DNA of 54,297 nucleotides. Source: an uncultured Flavobacteriales bacterium. GTDB lineage: Bacteria; Bacteroidota; Bacteroidia; Flavobacteriales_D; Crocinitomicaceae. Made by a program: the position numbers and the translations under genes. Within the stretch, counting starts at the first letter, position 1. Each line of letters opens with the position of its first letter. Below are positions 24,043 to 44,564 of this stretch, piece after piece. The notes under the pieces are model-generated. The model saw only the letters and a list, made by a program, of their open reading frames with translations, was not told the origin of the DNA and did not search any database. Where the stretch lies: positions 1 to 54,297 of the forward strand of contig CAJQJL010000130.1 in assembly GCA_905478665.1 (NCBI GenBank), in the 5' to 3' direction.

Positions 24043-25341
24043 ATGGGATTGACAATAGGTATAACAATTGCAGCATTCTTAATCGTAGTACTGGTACTTG
24101 TCGGAATGCTATTGTTCGTAAAGGCAAAGCTTTCTCCTTCAGGAAAAATCACCATTGATATCAATGATGGTGAAAGAGTAATTGAAGTTGACGGGGGTGG
24201 AACATTGTTGAGTACTTTGGGAAGCAACGGAATCTTCTTACCATCTGCATGTGGTGGAGGTGGAACTTGCGTTCAATGTACATGTCACGTTCTTGAAGGT
24301 GGTGGTGGAATTCTTCCTACGGAAGAGCCTCACTTCTCACGTAAAGAAATAGCTGCTCACATGCGTCTTGGATGTCAGGTGAAGGTGAAGGAAAACATGA
24401 AGATTCATGTTGAAGAAGAGGTTCTTGGAATTAAAGAATGGGAAGCTGAAGTTGTCTCGAATTATAACGTTGCGACTTTCATTAAAGAGTTTATCGTTGA
24501 GATTCCAGAAGATATGGATTACAAGGCTGGTGGATATATTCAAATTAAAATTCCAGTATGTGAGGTGAAGTATTCGGATATGGATATCTCAGCACATCCA
24601 CAAGATCATCCAGGTGAACCTGATAAGTTTAAAGCTGATTGGGATAAATTTGGATTGTGGCCTTTAGTTATGAAGAATGACGAAGAAGTTGTTCGTGCTT
24701 ATTCAATGGCTTCTTACCCTGCTGAAGGAAGACGTGTTATGTTGAATGTGCGTGTTGCTACTCCGCCTTGGGATAGAGATCGTAATGCGTGGATGAACGT
24801 TAATCCAGGAATTGCATCATCTTATATCTTTAACTTGAAAGTTGGTGATAAAGCAGTTATCTCAGGACCTTATGGTGAATTCTTCATCAATGATTCTGAT
24901 GCTGAGATGTTATACATCGGTGGTGGAGCTGGAATGGCGCCAATGCGTTCGCACTTATACGAATTATTCAGAACATTGAAGACAGGACGTAAAGTATCAT
25001 ACTGGTACGGTGGTCGTTCTAAAGCTGAGTTGTTCTACATTCACTACTTCCGTGATTTGGAAAAAGATTTCCCGAATTTCAAGTTTTTCCTTGTATTGTC
25101 TGATGCGTTGCCTGAAGATAACTGGGTAAATAAGAAAGATGTTAGTGATCCAGAAGGAGATGGTTTTACAGGTTTTGTGCATCAAGTTGTAATTGATGAA
25201 TACCTTTCAAAGCATGAATCACCTGAGGATATTGAATTTTACTTCTGTGGACCTCCATTGATGAATCAGGCTGTCATTAAAATGTGTGACGAATGGGGAG
25301 TTCCAGATGAAAATGTTCGATTTGATGATTTCGGTGGTTAA
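24043..25341 (+). CDS. nqrF: Na+-translocating NADH:quinone reductase subunit F
   Basis: The 432-residue electron entry subunit comprises an N-terminal transmembrane helix (5-27), then a [2Fe-2S] ferredoxin domain with Cys70, Cys76, Cys79 and Cys111 as ligands (ACGGGGTCVQC and LGCQVK). An FAD-binding domain follows (VRAYSMASYPAEGR), then an NADH-binding domain (YIGGGAGMAPMRSHLYELF, FYFCGPPLMNQAV) ending FDDFGG. It oxidises NADH and hands electrons to the flavins of NqrC and NqrB. It is the last gene of the operon, followed within 20 bases by a strong terminator. Confidence 0.97.
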   Translation: MGLTIGITIAAFLIVVLVLVGMLLFVKAKLSPSGKITIDINDGERVIEVDGGGTLLSTLGSNGIFLPSACGGGGTCVQCTCHVLEGGGGILPTEEPHFSRKEIAAHMRLGCQVKVKENMKIHVEEEVLGIKEWEAEVVSNYNVATFIKEFIVEIPEDMDYKAGGYIQIKIPVCEVKYSDMDISAHPQDHPGEPDKFKADWDKFGLWPLVMKNDEEVVRAYSMASYPAEGRRVMLNVRVATPPWDRDRNAWMNVNPGIASSYIFNLKVGDKAVISGPYGEFFINDSDAEMLYIGGGAGMAPMRSHLYELFRTLKTGRKVSYWYGGRSKAELFYIHYFRDLEKDFPNFKFFLVLSDALPEDNWVNKKDVSDPEGDGFTGFVHQVVIDEYLSKHESPEDIEFYFCGPPLMNQAVIKMCDEWGVPDENVRFDDFGG

Positions 25342-25360
25342 TCCACAATCTATATAATTG

Positions 25361-25393
25361 AAATCCCGACCGACAGGTTGGGATTTTTTTTTT
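25361..25393 (+). terminator. Rho-independent terminator of the nqr operon
   Basis: AATCCCGACC (25362-25371) pairs with GGTTGGGATT (25376-25385) through ten positions with one G-U pair and a GACA loop. A run of ten T follows (25384-25393). Confidence 0.93.
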
Positions 25394-25478
25394 GCTCTAT
25401 TCCCGTGAAGATATTACACTTTGCATTTTTTAATTAGGTTGAGTCTGTGTATATTGGAAGTAACTTAAAGCCACGTGA

Positions 25479-25955
25479 ATGAAAAAACTACTAACCGGCC
25501 TTGCAGTGTTATCGGTCTTTGGTATCTCTGCGCAATCGGCCTCTCCAGATGTCATCTCATCAGCTGGGAATGATTTCTCAAATGCAAATTTGCAAGTGAG
25601 TTGGACGATGGGAGAGCCCATAATTACAACAATCACTGATGGAAATAGTATTCTCACACAAGGATTTCACCAGAGTCATCTATCAAGTGTGTCCATTCTT
25701 GATTTGAATTCAACAATTGTATTTGAAGCCTTTCCAAATCCTGTGATCCATGAGTTAATCATCGAGAATTCTGATGAAGCGATTGGACATATGATGCAAA
25801 TAAATGACGGAAATGGTCGCGAAATTTGGTCAAGTGCGGTGACGAAAAACAAGGAAACAATTGATTTCTCTTCGTATGCATCAGGAACATATTTCTTATC
25901 ACTTTCAAAAGACGGAAGTGCGATTAAAACATTTAAAATTCTAAAAACCAACTAG
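25479..25955 (+). CDS. Small secreted protein with T9SS type A sorting domain
   Basis: The 158-residue protein has a signal peptide (LLTGLAVLSVFGISAQ) and a short mature core (SPDVISSAGNDFSNANLQVSW and GEPIITTITDGNSILTQGFHQ). Its type A C-terminal sorting domain begins at FEAFPNPVIHELII and ends FKILKTN. This compact layout is a recurring Bacteroidota secreted protein whose function is unknown. It stops two bases before the next secreted protein, and the two are probably co-transcribed. Export and sugar-linked surface attachment by T9SS is inferred from the sorting domain. Confidence 0.87.
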   Translation: MKKLLTGLAVLSVFGISAQSASPDVISSAGNDFSNANLQVSWTMGEPIITTITDGNSILTQGFHQSHLSSVSILDLNSTIVFEAFPNPVIHELIIENSDEAIGHMMQINDGNGREIWSSAVTKNKETIDFSSYASGTYFLSLSKDGSAIKTFKILKTN

Positions 25956-25957
25956 TC

Positions 25958-26875
25958 ATGAATAAAATTTTAACCATCATATTTGCCTTCATAGGCATTA
26001 CGACTTTCGCACAAGCACCAGAAGGAATCAATTATCAAGCGGTGATTCGCGATAATACAGGAACTGTTATTGCTTCTACATCAGTCGGAATTAGCATTAC
26101 CATTTATCAAACCTCACCTACGGGAACATTAGTTTACGAGGAAACCTTTGCACCTACGACGAACGGTTTTGGATTAGTTAATTTGGTTATTGGACAGGGT
26201 ACAGTTGTTTCTGGAACATTCTCTACCATTGATTGGGGAAATGGACCTTACTATGCTGAAATATCAGCCGATGCTGGAGGAGGAACAACGTACACGCTCT
26301 TAGGAACTCAACAGTTGATGAGTGTTCCTTACGCATTGTATGCAAAAGAGGCAGAAAATGCATTTAGTGGAGATTACAATGATTTGACAAATCAGCCGAG
26401 CATTCCAACCAATACATCAGATTTGATAAACGATTCTGGGTTCATTACAAGTCCAGATGATGCTGACGCGGATCCAACGAATGAGATTCAGGCACTTAGT
26501 ATTTCTGAGGATACCATTTCACTGTCTTCCGGTGGTTTTGTTGTGCAAGCTGCTCCAGTTGTTGAAAGTACAGGAGGTAGATCAGAAATGTGCTCTGGTA
26601 ATACTGCTGCTGGGACTGGATGGAATGTTTATGATCCAAGTACGATCTACTTGAGTGTGAATACTTCGGGATGTGGATTTTCGTCGACCCCTCGATATTT
26701 TACAAGTGTAGGGGGACTCGGTTCACATTTTGAATTGGTTGGTGCTTCCGCAATATATAGTCCTACTTCCACAGGATTTAGTGTGTACGTGCAAAAAAAC
26801 GACGGTACACCGTTAACCCCAGTTGATGCAGCCAATGGAGGTTGGTTTATTAATTGGACAGCTGTTGGACAATAG
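25958..26875 (+). CDS. Secreted protein: fibre-like N-terminal region plus C-terminal GWxINW domain
   Basis: The 305-residue protein has a signal peptide (IIFAFIGITTFAQ). The region at about 20-130 (PEGINYQAVIRDNTGTVIAST, then TNGFGLVNLVIGQG and LLGTQQLMSVPYALYAKEA) is the usual start of Bacteroidota fibre or adhesin-like proteins. A linker holds DYNDLTNQPSIPTNTSDLIND. The C-terminal 100 residues (GTGWNVYDPSTIYLSVNTSGC, HFELVGASAIYSPTSTGFSVY and NGGWFINWTAVG) look like a separate compact domain that, from memory, also recurs in algal and oomycete proteins. No T9SS sorting domain is seen. It may be a surface-recognition protein; this is inference. Confidence 0.8.
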   Translation: MNKILTIIFAFIGITTFAQAPEGINYQAVIRDNTGTVIASTSVGISITIYQTSPTGTLVYEETFAPTTNGFGLVNLVIGQGTVVSGTFSTIDWGNGPYYAEISADAGGGTTYTLLGTQQLMSVPYALYAKEAENAFSGDYNDLTNQPSIPTNTSDLINDSGFITSPDDADADPTNEIQALSISEDTISLSSGGFVVQAAPVVESTGGRSEMCSGNTAAGTGWNVYDPSTIYLSVNTSGCGFSSTPRYFTSVGGLGSHFELVGASAIYSPTSTGFSVYVQKNDGTPLTPVDAANGGWFINWTAVGQ

Positions 26876-26891
26876 AAAGAAATTACAAATG

Positions 26892-26901
26892 ATGACGTCA
26901 T
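26892..26901. promoter_or_regulatory. Palindrome ATGACGTCAT upstream of the sigma-54-type promoter
   Basis: It is a perfect 10-bp palindrome in the intergenic region, about 140 bases before the -24 element at 27031. That distance is typical for an enhancer-binding protein site, but one palindrome alone is weak evidence. Confidence 0.35.
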
Positions 26902-27008
26902 TGCGATTTTTGCAGTGGCGTTTCTCATTATTTGGAAAGTCGATTTTGTAGTGATCTTTTGGATTGTTTTAAGATGAAACCGTAATGAAAAAACATTGGG
27001 AACCCCTT

Positions 27009-27024
27009 ACTAAATCAGTTTAGT
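27009..27024. repeat. Inverted repeat ACTAAA-TCAG-TTTAGT next to the -24 element
   Basis: Perfect 6-bp arms with a 4-base spacer end six bases before the -24 element. It could be a regulator site close to the polymerase footprint, or chance in AT-rich DNA. Confidence 0.4.
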
Positions 27025-27029
27025 ACTAA

Positions 27030-27046
27030 TTGGCACGCAATTTGCA
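27030..27046 (+). promoter_or_regulatory. Sigma-54 (RpoN)-type promoter for the VWFD gene
   Basis: The bases read T-TGGCACG-CAAT-TTGCA. This matches the sigma-54 consensus YTGGCACG-N4-TTGCW at all fixed positions, with GG (27032-27033) and GC (27044-27045) ten bases apart. The start site would fall about 12 bases after the GC, near 27057, some 20 bases before ATG 27078. Confidence 0.75.
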
Positions 27047-27077
27047 ATTCGTTGGGTCGAAAACAATACTTCAGGAT

Positions 27078-28625
27078 ATGAAAATATATTACGCACTCAT
27101 CGCACTTTTACTCACTTCATTCTCAACCGAGGCTATCGCACAAGATAAAGCGGTTCGGACAAATGACTTTGCACCTATTGAGCAAGAGCTTAAGAATTGG
27201 GACCCAGTTCGGGGACCTTGGCTTTCGTCTAGTCTTCAATCAATGGCAAATAATCAACCAATTCCAGATCGTAACTTCCCAGAGAGGTTTACACCACATC
27301 AAATGCTTGGAATGGTTCCTTATGAAACGCGTAGCAACATGCTGAGAATCGCTAAGACAGCAAGAAACAATGGAGGTGATGCTGAATTTTGGTCTGATAT
27401 GACACGTTATATTTCCGCTCCTAATTGTCAATCTACAAGCGGTCGAACGTATGGAGATCCACATTTGGTTTCGTATGATGGCGCACGGAATTCGTTTCAA
27501 ACAGTAGGTGAGTTTGTATTGTCAAAATCCAATAATGGCGAGATGGAGGTTCAAACGCGGCAACGTCCTGTTGGAGATGACTTCTCATTAAATACTGCTG
27601 TAGCAATGAATGTTGCTGGAGATCGAGTTTGTATTTATGGACGTGATTATCCGGATGGAGATTACTCCACACCAATCCGTTTAGATGGTAGACCACTTCA
27701 TTTGAATGCAAGTACGTATTTCTTAGGGCATGGAGGAACCATCAAAAAATCAGGAAAGAACTATATCGTTTATTGGCCGACGGGTGAAAGCGTAAATGTA
27801 GAAATGAGAAGTTCACGTAACTCTGAGTTCATGAATGTTACAGTAAATGTACACGATTGCGCAGAAGGGAATTATGGTGGCTTACTCGGAAATGCAAACG
27901 GGAATAGCCGTGACGATTTTAACGGGCCTGGTTTGTCTCCTGCACCTTCGTTCGGTGGATGGGGAGATGATGATTACCTCAATCGTCAGCGACAAGCTTA
28001 TATGGCCAAAGATTTTGCAGAATTACACCGTGTTCAGCACCAGACAACTTTGTTTGATTACACGATGGGCAGGAATACTGACTCATACACGAATAGATCT
28101 TATCCACGTGTTTACAGAGATTTCAACGACATTAACAGTAGAAGAATTGATCGTTCAAGAAGACATTGTCAAGAACAAGGGGTTGACAGAAGAGATATGC
28201 AAGGATGTATTTATGACAATGCTTATTTAGGTATTGATCCGAGTCCAGCTCCAGTGATTCCAGATCCAACAAAAGGTACTGTACTTCGTCCAACAACAGG
28301 AAGAATTGAAAACGTTAACCCACCAAAGCCTGCACCAAGACCAACTCCTGGAAGAGTGGATGATGTGCGTGGAATTGGAGGGAATGGAGACAGAACGGAT
28401 AAGGATACGCCGAGCAATCCGCGGCCAGCAACTACGAGACCGAGTACGCCACGTCCTACAACATCTCCGACGCCAAGACCGCCAAGGCCAACACCACCGC
28501 CTAGAACGCAGCCAACGCCGCGTCCAGCACCAACGCCGCGTCCGGCTCCAACGCCAAGACCAAAACCCACTCCGAAACCAACACCAGCACCGACACCTCG
28601 TCCGTCTGGAGGTAGAGGACGTTAG
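27078..28625 (+). CDS. Secreted VWFD-domain protein with Pro/Arg-rich TPRP tail
   Basis: The 515-residue protein starts at ATG 27078; an in-frame TTG at 27030 overlaps the promoter and is rejected. A signal peptide ends at IAQ (residue 22). The N-terminal helical region (about 23-115) is followed by a von Willebrand factor D-type domain from about residue 122: TYGDPHLVSYDGARNSFQTVG and EFVLSKSNNG, then CAEGNYGGLLGNANGNSRDDF, with the typical GDPH opening and GLLGNANG closure. The last 110 residues are low-complexity, very rich in Pro, Arg and Thr (repeated TPRPAP), ending SGGRGR. No T9SS sorting domain is present. Pro/Arg tails may sit in peptidoglycan or acidic surface polymers; this is inference. 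Control by sigma-54 is suggested by the upstream promoter. Confidence 0.85.
   Translation: MKIYYALIALLLTSFSTEAIAQDKAVRTNDFAPIEQELKNWDPVRGPWLSSSLQSMANNQPIPDRNFPERFTPHQMLGMVPYETRSNMLRIAKTARNNGGDAEFWSDMTRYISAPNCQSTSGRTYGDPHLVSYDGARNSFQTVGEFVLSKSNNGEMEVQTRQRPVGDDFSLNTAVAMNVAGDRVCIYGRDYPDGDYSTPIRLDGRPLHLNASTYFLGHGGTIKKSGKNYIVYWPTGESVNVEMRSSRNSEFMNVTVNVHDCAEGNYGGLLGNANGNSRDDFNGPGLSPAPSFGGWGDDDYLNRQRQAYMAKDFAELHRVQHQTTLFDYTMGRNTDSYTNRSYPRVYRDFNDINSRRIDRSRRHCQEQGVDRRDMQGCIYDNAYLGIDPSPAPVIPDPTKGTVLRPTTGRIENVNPPKPAPRPTPGRVDDVRGIGGNGDRTDKDTPSNPRPATTRPSTPRPTTSPTPRPPRPTPPPRTQPTPRPAPTPRPAPTPRPKPTPKPTPAPTPRPSGGRGR
28512..28565 (+). repeat. Three tandem 18-bp repeats encoding TPRPAP
   Basis: Units at 28512, 28530 and 28548 each begin CCAACGCC. 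The first two differ at two positions and the third is more diverged. They lie inside the VWFD protein's Pro-rich tail and are a candidate for length variation by slippage or recombination. Confidence 0.8.
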
Positions 28626-28649
28626 TTCATAGTATACATAGTTTTAGTT

Positions 28650-28688
28650 AAAAGGCTGATTTCGCAAGATTTCAGCCTTTTGTGTTTT
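28650..28688 (+). terminator. Terminator after the VWFD gene
   Basis: AAAAGGCTGA (28650-28659) pairs with TCAGCCTTTT (28672-28681) and GTGTTTT follows. The stem is symmetrical, with A-runs and T-runs at both sides. Confidence 0.8.
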
Positions 28689-28710
28689 CAATTGAATTAG
28701 AGTATTTTTG
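28680..28710 (+). promoter_or_regulatory. Promoter for the type B cargo gene (TTG-N20-TATTTTTG)
   Basis: TTG at 28680-28682 and TATTTTTG at 28703-28710 match the Bacteroidota vegetative consensus. ATG 28721 lies ten bases after the -7 box, so the leader is very short. Confidence 0.6.
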
Positions 28711-43598: not shown

Positions 43599-44564
43599 AT
43601 GAAAAGAATTCTACTTTCTGCACTCGCTGCGGTGCCTTTATTTGCGATGTCGCAAACAACAATTTTTACAGAAAATTTCGATACTTACAATGATCAGGAC
43701 TGGGCTGGAGACGTATCTTCAGTAATGTCAACTTGGTCAGGAGTGACGGGTGCTGGTAGTTCAGATGATGTACCTGTTACATCTGCAGAATCAAGCAGTC
43801 CATCAAACTCAGTTCAGGTTACTGGTCCACAGGCTGGTGGTTCTCAAGATGCGATGGTTGTTTTTCCATCAAATTACACAGCCGGTCGTTATGAGTTCTC
43901 AATGAAATACAAAGTTGCTTCTGGAATGGGAGGTTACTTTAATCTTCAGTCGGATGGAGCTGTTCCTGGAACTGCTTGGTTAGCTGAGATTTATTTCGAC
44001 GCTGCTGGTGCTGGTTATGTTGCTGCTGCTGGACAACAGTATACATTCAACTATACTAACGGTGCATGGATTGATGTTGTATGTGTTGTTGATATTGATT
44101 CTGATATGGGTAATATCTGGATTGAAGGTGTTCAAGCAGGATCTGGATTCGTATTGTCACTTGAAGCTGACGGTACTGGAACTGGAGCTAACATGTCTTT
44201 CGGAGGAATTAACTTGTATTCAGCATCTGGAGATGCAACAGCTGCGTGTGAGTACTACGTAGATGATTTAATGCTTGTTGAAACAACTGGTGTTGGGCTT
44301 GAGGAAGAAGTGTTGAACGCTTCAATGAACGTTGTTCCAAACCCTTCAAACGGAAACTTCGTATTGGATTACACAGATATGTCTATGGAGAATGCAACTG
44401 TTACGTTGGTTGATATCCTAGGTAAGACTATCTATTCAAAGAAAATGAGTGTTGTAGGAAATGCTAGCTTACCATTCAATATGAATCTTCGCAACGGTGT
44501 TTACTTTGTTACGGTTACAGATGGTACATCTAAATTGACGAAGAAGATTATCGTTAAGAAATAA
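43599..44564 (+). CDS. Secreted protein with T9SS type A sorting domain
   Basis: The 321-residue protein has a signal peptide (ILLSALAAVPLFAMSQ). A jelly-roll-like region covers about 20-230 (FTENFDTYNDQDWAGDVSSVM, GGYFNLQSDGAVPG and CEYYVDDLMLVE), resembling concanavalin/LamG-type beta sandwiches. A type A sorting domain begins MNVVPNPSNGNFVLDYTDMS, has VDILGKTIYSKKM and ends KLTKKIIVKK. It is likely exported by T9SS and attached to the surface or released. The strong terminator after it makes it a single-gene unit. The ligand is unknown. Confidence 0.9.
   Translation: MKRILLSALAAVPLFAMSQTTIFTENFDTYNDQDWAGDVSSVMSTWSGVTGAGSSDDVPVTSAESSSPSNSVQVTGPQAGGSQDAMVVFPSNYTAGRYEFSMKYKVASGMGGYFNLQSDGAVPGTAWLAEIYFDAAGAGYVAAAGQQYTFNYTNGAWIDVVCVVDIDSDMGNIWIEGVQAGSGFVLSLEADGTGTGANMSFGGINLYSASGDATAACEYYVDDLMLVETTGVGLEEEVLNASMNVVPNPSNGNFVLDYTDMSMENATVTLVDILGKTIYSKKMSVVGNASLPFNMNLRNGVYFVTVTDGTSKLTKKIIVKK

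Follow-up and report, generated by a model that had tools for sequence, protein, structure and literature searches.

A predicted sigma-54 promoter conserved ahead of the gene of an exported VWFD protein in Crocinitomicaceae

To our knowledge, experiments have defined few sigma-54 regulons in Bacteroidota. In Flavobacterium psychrophilum the sigma-54 (SM4) regulon was mapped, with its -24/-12 promoters, and according to the accessible part of that report (PMC9723704) it is a protein-quality and envelope regulon whose list includes Lon and in which the control of exported proteins is already mapped. The same source gives three PF00158 proteins and a putative regulatory RNA, Rfp36, for this species, places a sigma-54 regulator near groESL in a table, and describes SM4 promoters that responded to blood agar, osmotic pressure, plasma and freshwater. 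For Flavobacteriia, TonB was predicted as a sigma-54 target in the accessible text of another study (PMC12316311), where this is unconfirmed. On a wider scale, Francke et al. 2011 (PMC3162934, accessible text) proposed sigma-54 as the controller of the bacterial exterior, a pan-bacterial theme.

The locus described here shares with the accessible account of F. psychrophilum the -24/-12 promoters, the three PF00158 proteins, Lon and a putative small RNA. It differs in that the main text of that report names no VWFD protein (0 occurrences of 'willebrand'), and in that the starts were mapped experimentally there, whereas the present promoter is known from sequence alone. Regarding the theme of Francke et al., the likeness lies in the envelope and exterior genes that are under sigma-54 across phyla; however, the main text has 0 mentions of Bacteroidetes, 'bacteroid' or 'flavobacteri'. 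The earlier note on this DNA had taken the link between a VWFD protein and RpoN for undescribed. No paper among the matches listed in the open-access literature ties a VWFD protein to sigma-54, so its absence from print is weakly supported; but sigma-54-controlled exported proteins are known in F. psychrophilum (PMC9723704, accessible part), and therefore the kind of control is known and the VWFD member is new.

The window, that is, the whole stretch of 54,297 nucleotides that was analysed, reads TTGGCACGCAATTTGCA at positions 27030-27046, with GG at 27032-27033 and GC at 27044-27045, thus GG-N10-GC. This agrees without mismatch with TGGCACG-N4-TTGCW, which we take to be the sigma-54 promoter consensus, and 31 bases separate its last position, 27046, from the ATG at 27078. 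In the usual sigma-54 geometry the transcript starts about 12 nt after the -12 box. The features around the motif are the following:
27030..27046, plus strand: predicted sigma-54 promoter, -24 box (GG 27032-27033) and -12 box (GC 27044-27045); exact consensus, footprint in homologues
27057..27057, plus strand: predicted transcript start, 12 nt past the -12 C, from the usual sigma-54 geometry
27078..28625, plus strand: gene of an exported VWFD protein of 515 aa; open frame, PF00094, homologues
26894..26922, plus strand: weak terminator-like hairpin following the upstream gene
27008..27025, no strand: inverted repeat TACTAAATCAGTTTAGTA shortly before the -24 box, also in the closest relative (L031); role doubtful
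28703..28710, plus strand: TAnnTTTG box ahead of the next gene; this pattern is about as frequent in the window as chance predicts

We consider the VWFD gene to be sigma-54 dependent with a probability of roughly 0.92, a judgement made on sequence comparison, and the promoter would be active and yield a transcript that begins near 27057.

With up to 2 mismatches to TGGCACG-N4-TTGCW, 5 matches were found in the window against 6.5 expected, and the one at 27030-27046 is the sole match with fewer than 2; an exact match is expected 0.005 times per window under an order-1 Markov model. What had been called a near-perfect motif, GG-N10-GC before an ATG, is actually an exact match and the only one in the 3.9-Mb genome. 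Dropping the final W adds one genome match (C9:27366, 92 nt before an ATG), which makes 2 sites for this strict pattern versus 0 for the reversed one. Looser searches gave 18 sites versus 13 for the pattern read backwards (at most 1 mismatch) and 80 versus 60 (relaxed pattern), and in the relative G009 there were 33 sites against 33. These genome-wide counts, which show no clear excess over reversed patterns, were set aside as evidence: the position of the motif and its conservation carry the case, and not the counts.

Counts near chance are also the first point in favour of a chance motif, in which case the VWFD gene would be transcribed from elsewhere, for instance from the upstream gene. 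That gene ends at 26875, and the terminator-like hairpin after it is only weak evidence of a separate unit, because 5 such sites occur in the region where 2.7 are expected. Nevertheless, the footprint described below is found in homologues even where the upstream gene differs, and we regard chance as hardly credible. The inverted repeat at 27008-27025 was considered as an enhancer and rejected, since its exact copy occurs only here and in the closest relative (L031); genome-wide the repeat was found in 3 places versus 2 for a control pattern, which is near chance.

The footprint was read from 111 regions upstream of homologous genes, mainly from Crocinitomicaceae, made up of a first set of 69 and 42 further ones. 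The latter came from 80 loci, after 35 that were already in the first set and 3 that could not be used had been left out; one region without a start (L035) was dropped from the first set. Among the 111 regions are some of paralogues (L087, L088) and others whose start was misjudged, e.g. L039. Many Crocinitomicaceae/Fluviicola are in the homologue set, the cultured Fluviicola chungangensis among them, as well as several other taxa.

In the last 80 nt before the start, 61 of the 69 first-set regions agree with at least 9 of the 13 consensus positions, compared with 5, 4, 5 and 6 of 69 in the controls (two upstream regions, reverse complement, shuffles). The further regions gave 33 of 42, versus 1 and 2 of 42 in controls. 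Without any selection by score, [TC]GG-N8-TTG is present in the last 80 nt of 99 of the 111 regions, whereas [TC]GG-Nx-TTG at the other spacings from 3 to 13 is present in at most 8; control regions contain the form with N8 in 2, 2 and 1 of 111, and they reach 13 at other spacings. The stricter form GG[CTA]A[CT]-N5-TTG was found in 89 of 111 regions (70 of 86 after redundancy reduction), against 0 with N4 and 1 with N6. In the column table, information is concentrated in the boxes and is low in the flanks, in the first two spacer bases and in most of the 4-nt spacer; this table was built from the 94 rows (of 111) that agree in 9 or more of the 13 positions, and hence leans towards the motif, while the spacing counts are unselected by score. 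The C of the -12 box is variable in these 94 score-selected rows (C 40, T 38, A 9, G 7). Boxes held at one spacing, with flanks that vary freely, are expected of a sigma-54 promoter, and not of a sigma-A promoter or a coding constraint. The RpoN control claimed in the earlier note is supported by -24/-12 boxes at one fixed spacing ahead of most homologues, and the predicted promoter of the VWFD gene has an unusually clear footprint.

Outside the genus, the gene neighbours differ in four genomes (L154, L155, L157, L158) and the boxes are kept (L070, L090, L082, L074); in L082 they stand 74 nt ahead of the chosen start. By eye, an apparent response-regulator gene immediately precedes the VWFD gene in several relatives, with the boxes right past the stop codon of the former. 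Such an upstream gene lies at 5360-6031 of L158 (G083), and L074, L078, L211, L232, L237 and L241 have similar upstream ends.

The boxes stand at various distances from the ATG, mostly 19 to 43 nt, with 28 nt in Fluviicola chungangensis (L212), and in all three frames, and the intervening sequence is little conserved. This bears on the reading in which the conserved bases would be coding, as a frame of 531 aa is indeed open from a TTG at 27030, or would form an operator rather than a promoter. Variable distances in all three frames argue against the former and the fixed GG-N10-G geometry, which an operator does not need, against the latter, so that we give this reading next to no weight.

The loose form [TC]GG-N8-TTG is absent from the last 80 nt of 12 of the 111 regions, and the stricter form from 22. 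A coupling of promoter loss to rpoN loss was examined and discarded: rpoN is nearly universal, and it is present in the genomes of L056, L060, L076 and L098, where the boxes are missing.

Another question is whether the conserved box has no more than a resemblance to -24/-12 and is read by a different sigma factor (vegetative with TAnnTTTG, like SM5 of F. psychrophilum with TAnnTTGY, or of the ECF type). There is a TTTG within the -12 box, and 14 of the 111 regions have TAnnTTTG in their last 80 nt, versus 2, 9 and 7 in the controls. However, GG and TTG keep the same spacing in 99 of the 111, the conserved pair is that of -24/-12 and not that of -33/-7, and upstream of the VWFD gene there is no TAnnTTTG. 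Actually this pattern has no match on either strand from 24653 to 28702, so that a vegetative -7 box of that form is missing just upstream of the gene. Another sigma factor is therefore very unlikely, and we retain sigma-54 as the factor that very probably reads the boxes. The earlier note had also assigned the other promoters of this DNA to the TAnnTTTG type, which says little, because the pattern occurs at chance level (48 found in the window, 53 expected). Given the box at 28703..28710, the next gene may have its own promoter.

The genome contains rpoN, complete with the activator-interacting (AID), core-binding (CBD) and DNA-binding (DBD) domains, and the gene was found in 77 of 80 relatives tested and in 61 of 61 among the good-quality genomes. 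Regarding activators, three proteins match Sigma54_activat strongly and five more weakly. Of the checks proposed in the earlier note, those for rpoN and for activators gave a positive answer. The three strong activators, whose loops were partly read by eye, are as follows. C104 has no receiver, a Fis-type HTH and a GSFTGA loop, and lies near groESL (by eye). C48 (L160:7279-8469) has receiver, AAA+ and lid domains with GAFTGA, and adjoins an Hpt-like protein and apparent kinases, as named by eye. C8 (L161:7783-8961) has the same three domains with GAFTSA in place of GAFTGA. Pfam gave no DNA-binding domain in C48 and C8, both of which stop a short way past the AAA+ lid, and none was seen in the three frames just downstream of them.

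Activators without a DNA-binding domain exist elsewhere, namely FlgR of Helicobacter and CtcC of Chlamydia. C48 and C8 resemble them, since in each Pfam found a receiver, an AAA+ and a lid domain but none for DNA binding; C8 differs from them in its GAFTSA. Since two of the activators are of this type and no shared upstream palindrome or enhancer was found across 61 regions, activation from solution, as in FlgR of Helicobacter, without an enhancer, is a fair guess by analogy. We lean towards a receiver-type protein as the activator that would serve the promoter.

As a different possibility, the sigma-54 promoter would be served by C104 from a drifted enhancer, and expression would track the level of C104 or that of an as yet unknown partner, and not a kinase. 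C104 is the only activator with a DNA-binding domain (the Fis-type HTH) and has no receiver, its loop being GSFTGA; moreover, its place near groESL recalls the sigma-54 regulator near groESL in the F. psychrophilum table (PMC9723704, accessible part). Against it, the 61 regions have no common upstream palindrome, and it is C48 that has the canonical GAFTGA. We therefore hold service by C104 to be possible and rather unlikely, and continue with a receiver-type activator. The claim of a separate, enhancer-dependent regulon is supported as far as RpoN control is concerned; regarding its enhancer part, no enhancer common to the regions was found, and Pfam gave no DNA-binding domain in two of the three activators.

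The features of the protein itself, all on the plus strand, are these:
27078..27143: export-type hydrophobic N-terminus of 22 aa, read by eye
27444..27920: VWFD domain, residues 123-281; PF00094 with 34.5 bits against a cut-off of 22.9, and fold
27453..27464: GDPH motif, residues 126-129; two overlapping alignments keep it without change, in 16 of 16 and in 28 of 28 sequences
28278..28622: basic, Pro-rich tail that begins at residue 401; the 15 homologues read end in a tail rich in Pro or in Lys/Arg

Matches to the protein were found in 67 of the 149 genomes searched, its own included, 66 of them in the family of the window and one in another family of the order. The N-terminal part of the protein is conserved and helical. 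The AlphaFold model of residues 1-407, built from 28 sequences, has a mean pLDDT of 83.3 and a pTM of 0.82, and its Foldseek matches are MUC2, VWF, MUC5AC/5B and FCGBP; the best one, MUC2, has an E-value of 4.4e-10 and a probability of 1.00, with a query TM-score of 0.42 and an rmsd of 6.5. In the profile search FCGBP came first (4.8e-19). The protein is therefore of the VWFD type, nearest to FCGBP in sequence and to MUC2 and VWF in fold. The description of a secreted VWFD protein with a Pro/Arg tail is supported by PF00094 and the basic Pro-rich tail, export being judged by eye from the N-terminus.

With FCGBP, MUC2, MUC5AC, MUC5B and VWF the protein has the VWD domain in common by Pfam, profile and fold, including GDPH, and self-cleavage at GDPH has been described for some mucins and FCGBP. 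The bacterial protein differs from the mucins, FCGBP and VWF in having one VWD domain only, a helical N-terminal region and the basic Pro-rich tail. No type IX sorting domain of the Por_Secre_tail or CHU_C type was reported for it, VWD being the only Pfam match at E <= 0.001; the same scan found Por_Secre_tail and CHU_C in the proteins at 25479 and 28721. We propose that the protein has a role at the surface or in the periplasm. The same genome has a second, divergent VWFD paralogue of 444 aa (C8:119166-120221; L162:5957-7291, L087) with VWD above the cut-off, and only a weak sigma-54-like site precedes it.

In order to describe the wider regulon, 25 loci of the genome were sampled, 20 of the 80 relaxed sites picked by eye and 5 of the 18 loci from the list with at most 1 mismatch, and 30 of the 33 sites were taken in the comparison genome G009. 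Five sites keep motif and place in both genomes: those of the VWFD gene, of Lon (76 nt before the ATG in this genome and 75 in G009), of two TonB_C proteins (35/36 and 50/39 nt before the start as called, this genome/G009) and of a non-coding stretch. A sixth common match (L135/L254) lies inside a coding frame and was not counted. Other sites, sampled in this genome only, stand 25-45 nt before genes of lipoprotein-like, unknown exported, LysM and rhodanese-domain proteins. The recurrent matches TTGGCACACGAGTTGCT and TTGGCACATGAGTTGCT were set aside as probably coding, because their spacer is conserved too; in G009 that site lies inside a frame of 352 codons (L270). As a positive control groES, which is sigma-54 dependent in F. 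psychrophilum, was dropped, since by eye it has only a weak site in this genome. Regarding the claim of a separate regulon, the regulon as sampled resembles the protein-quality and envelope regulon of F. psychrophilum, Lon being in both (PMC9723704, accessible part).

The non-coding stretch contains a candidate small RNA of about 85 nt with a sigma-54-like promoter, in which a conserved unpaired 5' block is followed by a terminator hairpin:
C138:757-861, minus strand: small RNA of this genome (L277, L149), site kept in G009
C15:231764-231874: small RNA of G009 (L275, L272), match to the copy of this genome

Matches were found in 61 of the 149 genomes, this one included, many of the more distant ones being short. 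Some genomes have several copies (5 matches in G007, 4 each in G022, G028 and G032). Sigma-54-like boxes precede 41 of 50 copies (30 loci), 33 of them at one distance. In an alignment of 34 hand-chosen copies out of 48 distinct ones, 10 of the 11 hairpin pairs have changes on both sides. Rfam gave no match to the small RNA in L149 and L272, and one unrelated match at E 0.16. The first copies in L299, L300, L301, L302, L303 and L304 have no sigma-54 boxes and share another upstream block around GTATTACATATAACAATAC, which is perhaps a second promoter or a regulator site.

The block GUUUUCAUAAGUA of the small RNA is complementary to UACUUAUGAAAAC, that is, to the start codons of ATGAAAA genes. 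Of 51 genes of the window, those at 43599 and 38860, both with export-type N-termini, pair best (-23.9 and -22.6 kcal/mol), with z-values of -4.1 and -4.0 against base shuffles and of -3.5 and -2.2 against two-base shuffles. The 43599 gene was compared with nine relatives, whose proteins share no more than 29-39% identity with its product along part of their length: 4 hold TACTTATGAAAA and 2 more CTTATGAAAA, so that 6 of the 9 have a match of 10-12 nt over ATGAAAA. For 38860 no common pairing site was found, as its 10 homologues had one match of 11 nt and two of 9 nt in different places. The pairing is a lead and not a result, because ATGAAAA starts are common in these genomes. A small RNA that regulates the VWFD gene itself was discarded, as this gene ranks 33rd of the 51 in pairing energy.

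We can now suggest how the locus most likely works. RpoN-RNA polymerase would bind the -24/-12 boxes at 27030-27046 and wait there as a closed complex. An AAA+ activator, most likely of the receiver type, would be switched by a kinase in response to a signal from the envelope or surface, and would open the complex with ATP. The product of the mRNA from near 27057 would be exported and combine a VWFD domain like that of mucins and FCGBP with the basic Pro-rich tail, and its place of action may be the cell surface or the periplasm. The VWFD gene would belong to a small envelope-related sigma-54 regulon with Lon, two TonB-like proteins and the small-RNA family. A promoter kept family-wide before one exported protein suggests production on demand, and offers a way into the surface biology of these aquatic bacteria. 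Furthermore, the small-RNA family without Rfam match and the activators without DNA-binding domain make sigma-54 switching in this family directly testable.

A far bolder version, which we regard as a speculation with little chance of being right as a whole, is a sigma-54 envelope programme of Crocinitomicaceae with two arms. One would be a VWFD protein that cleaves itself at GDPH and becomes covalently tied to the surface; the other, multi-copy small RNAs that silence the mRNAs of other exported proteins through an anti-start-codon seed. The activators without DNA-binding domain would act on both from solution, free of enhancers.

Finally, G100, a 1.5-Mb genome of the same order and another family, contains 14 exact matches to TTGGCAYR-N4-TTGCW versus 0 to the reversed pattern, the next best of 60 genomes having 4, and this small genome probably has a large sigma-54 regulon.
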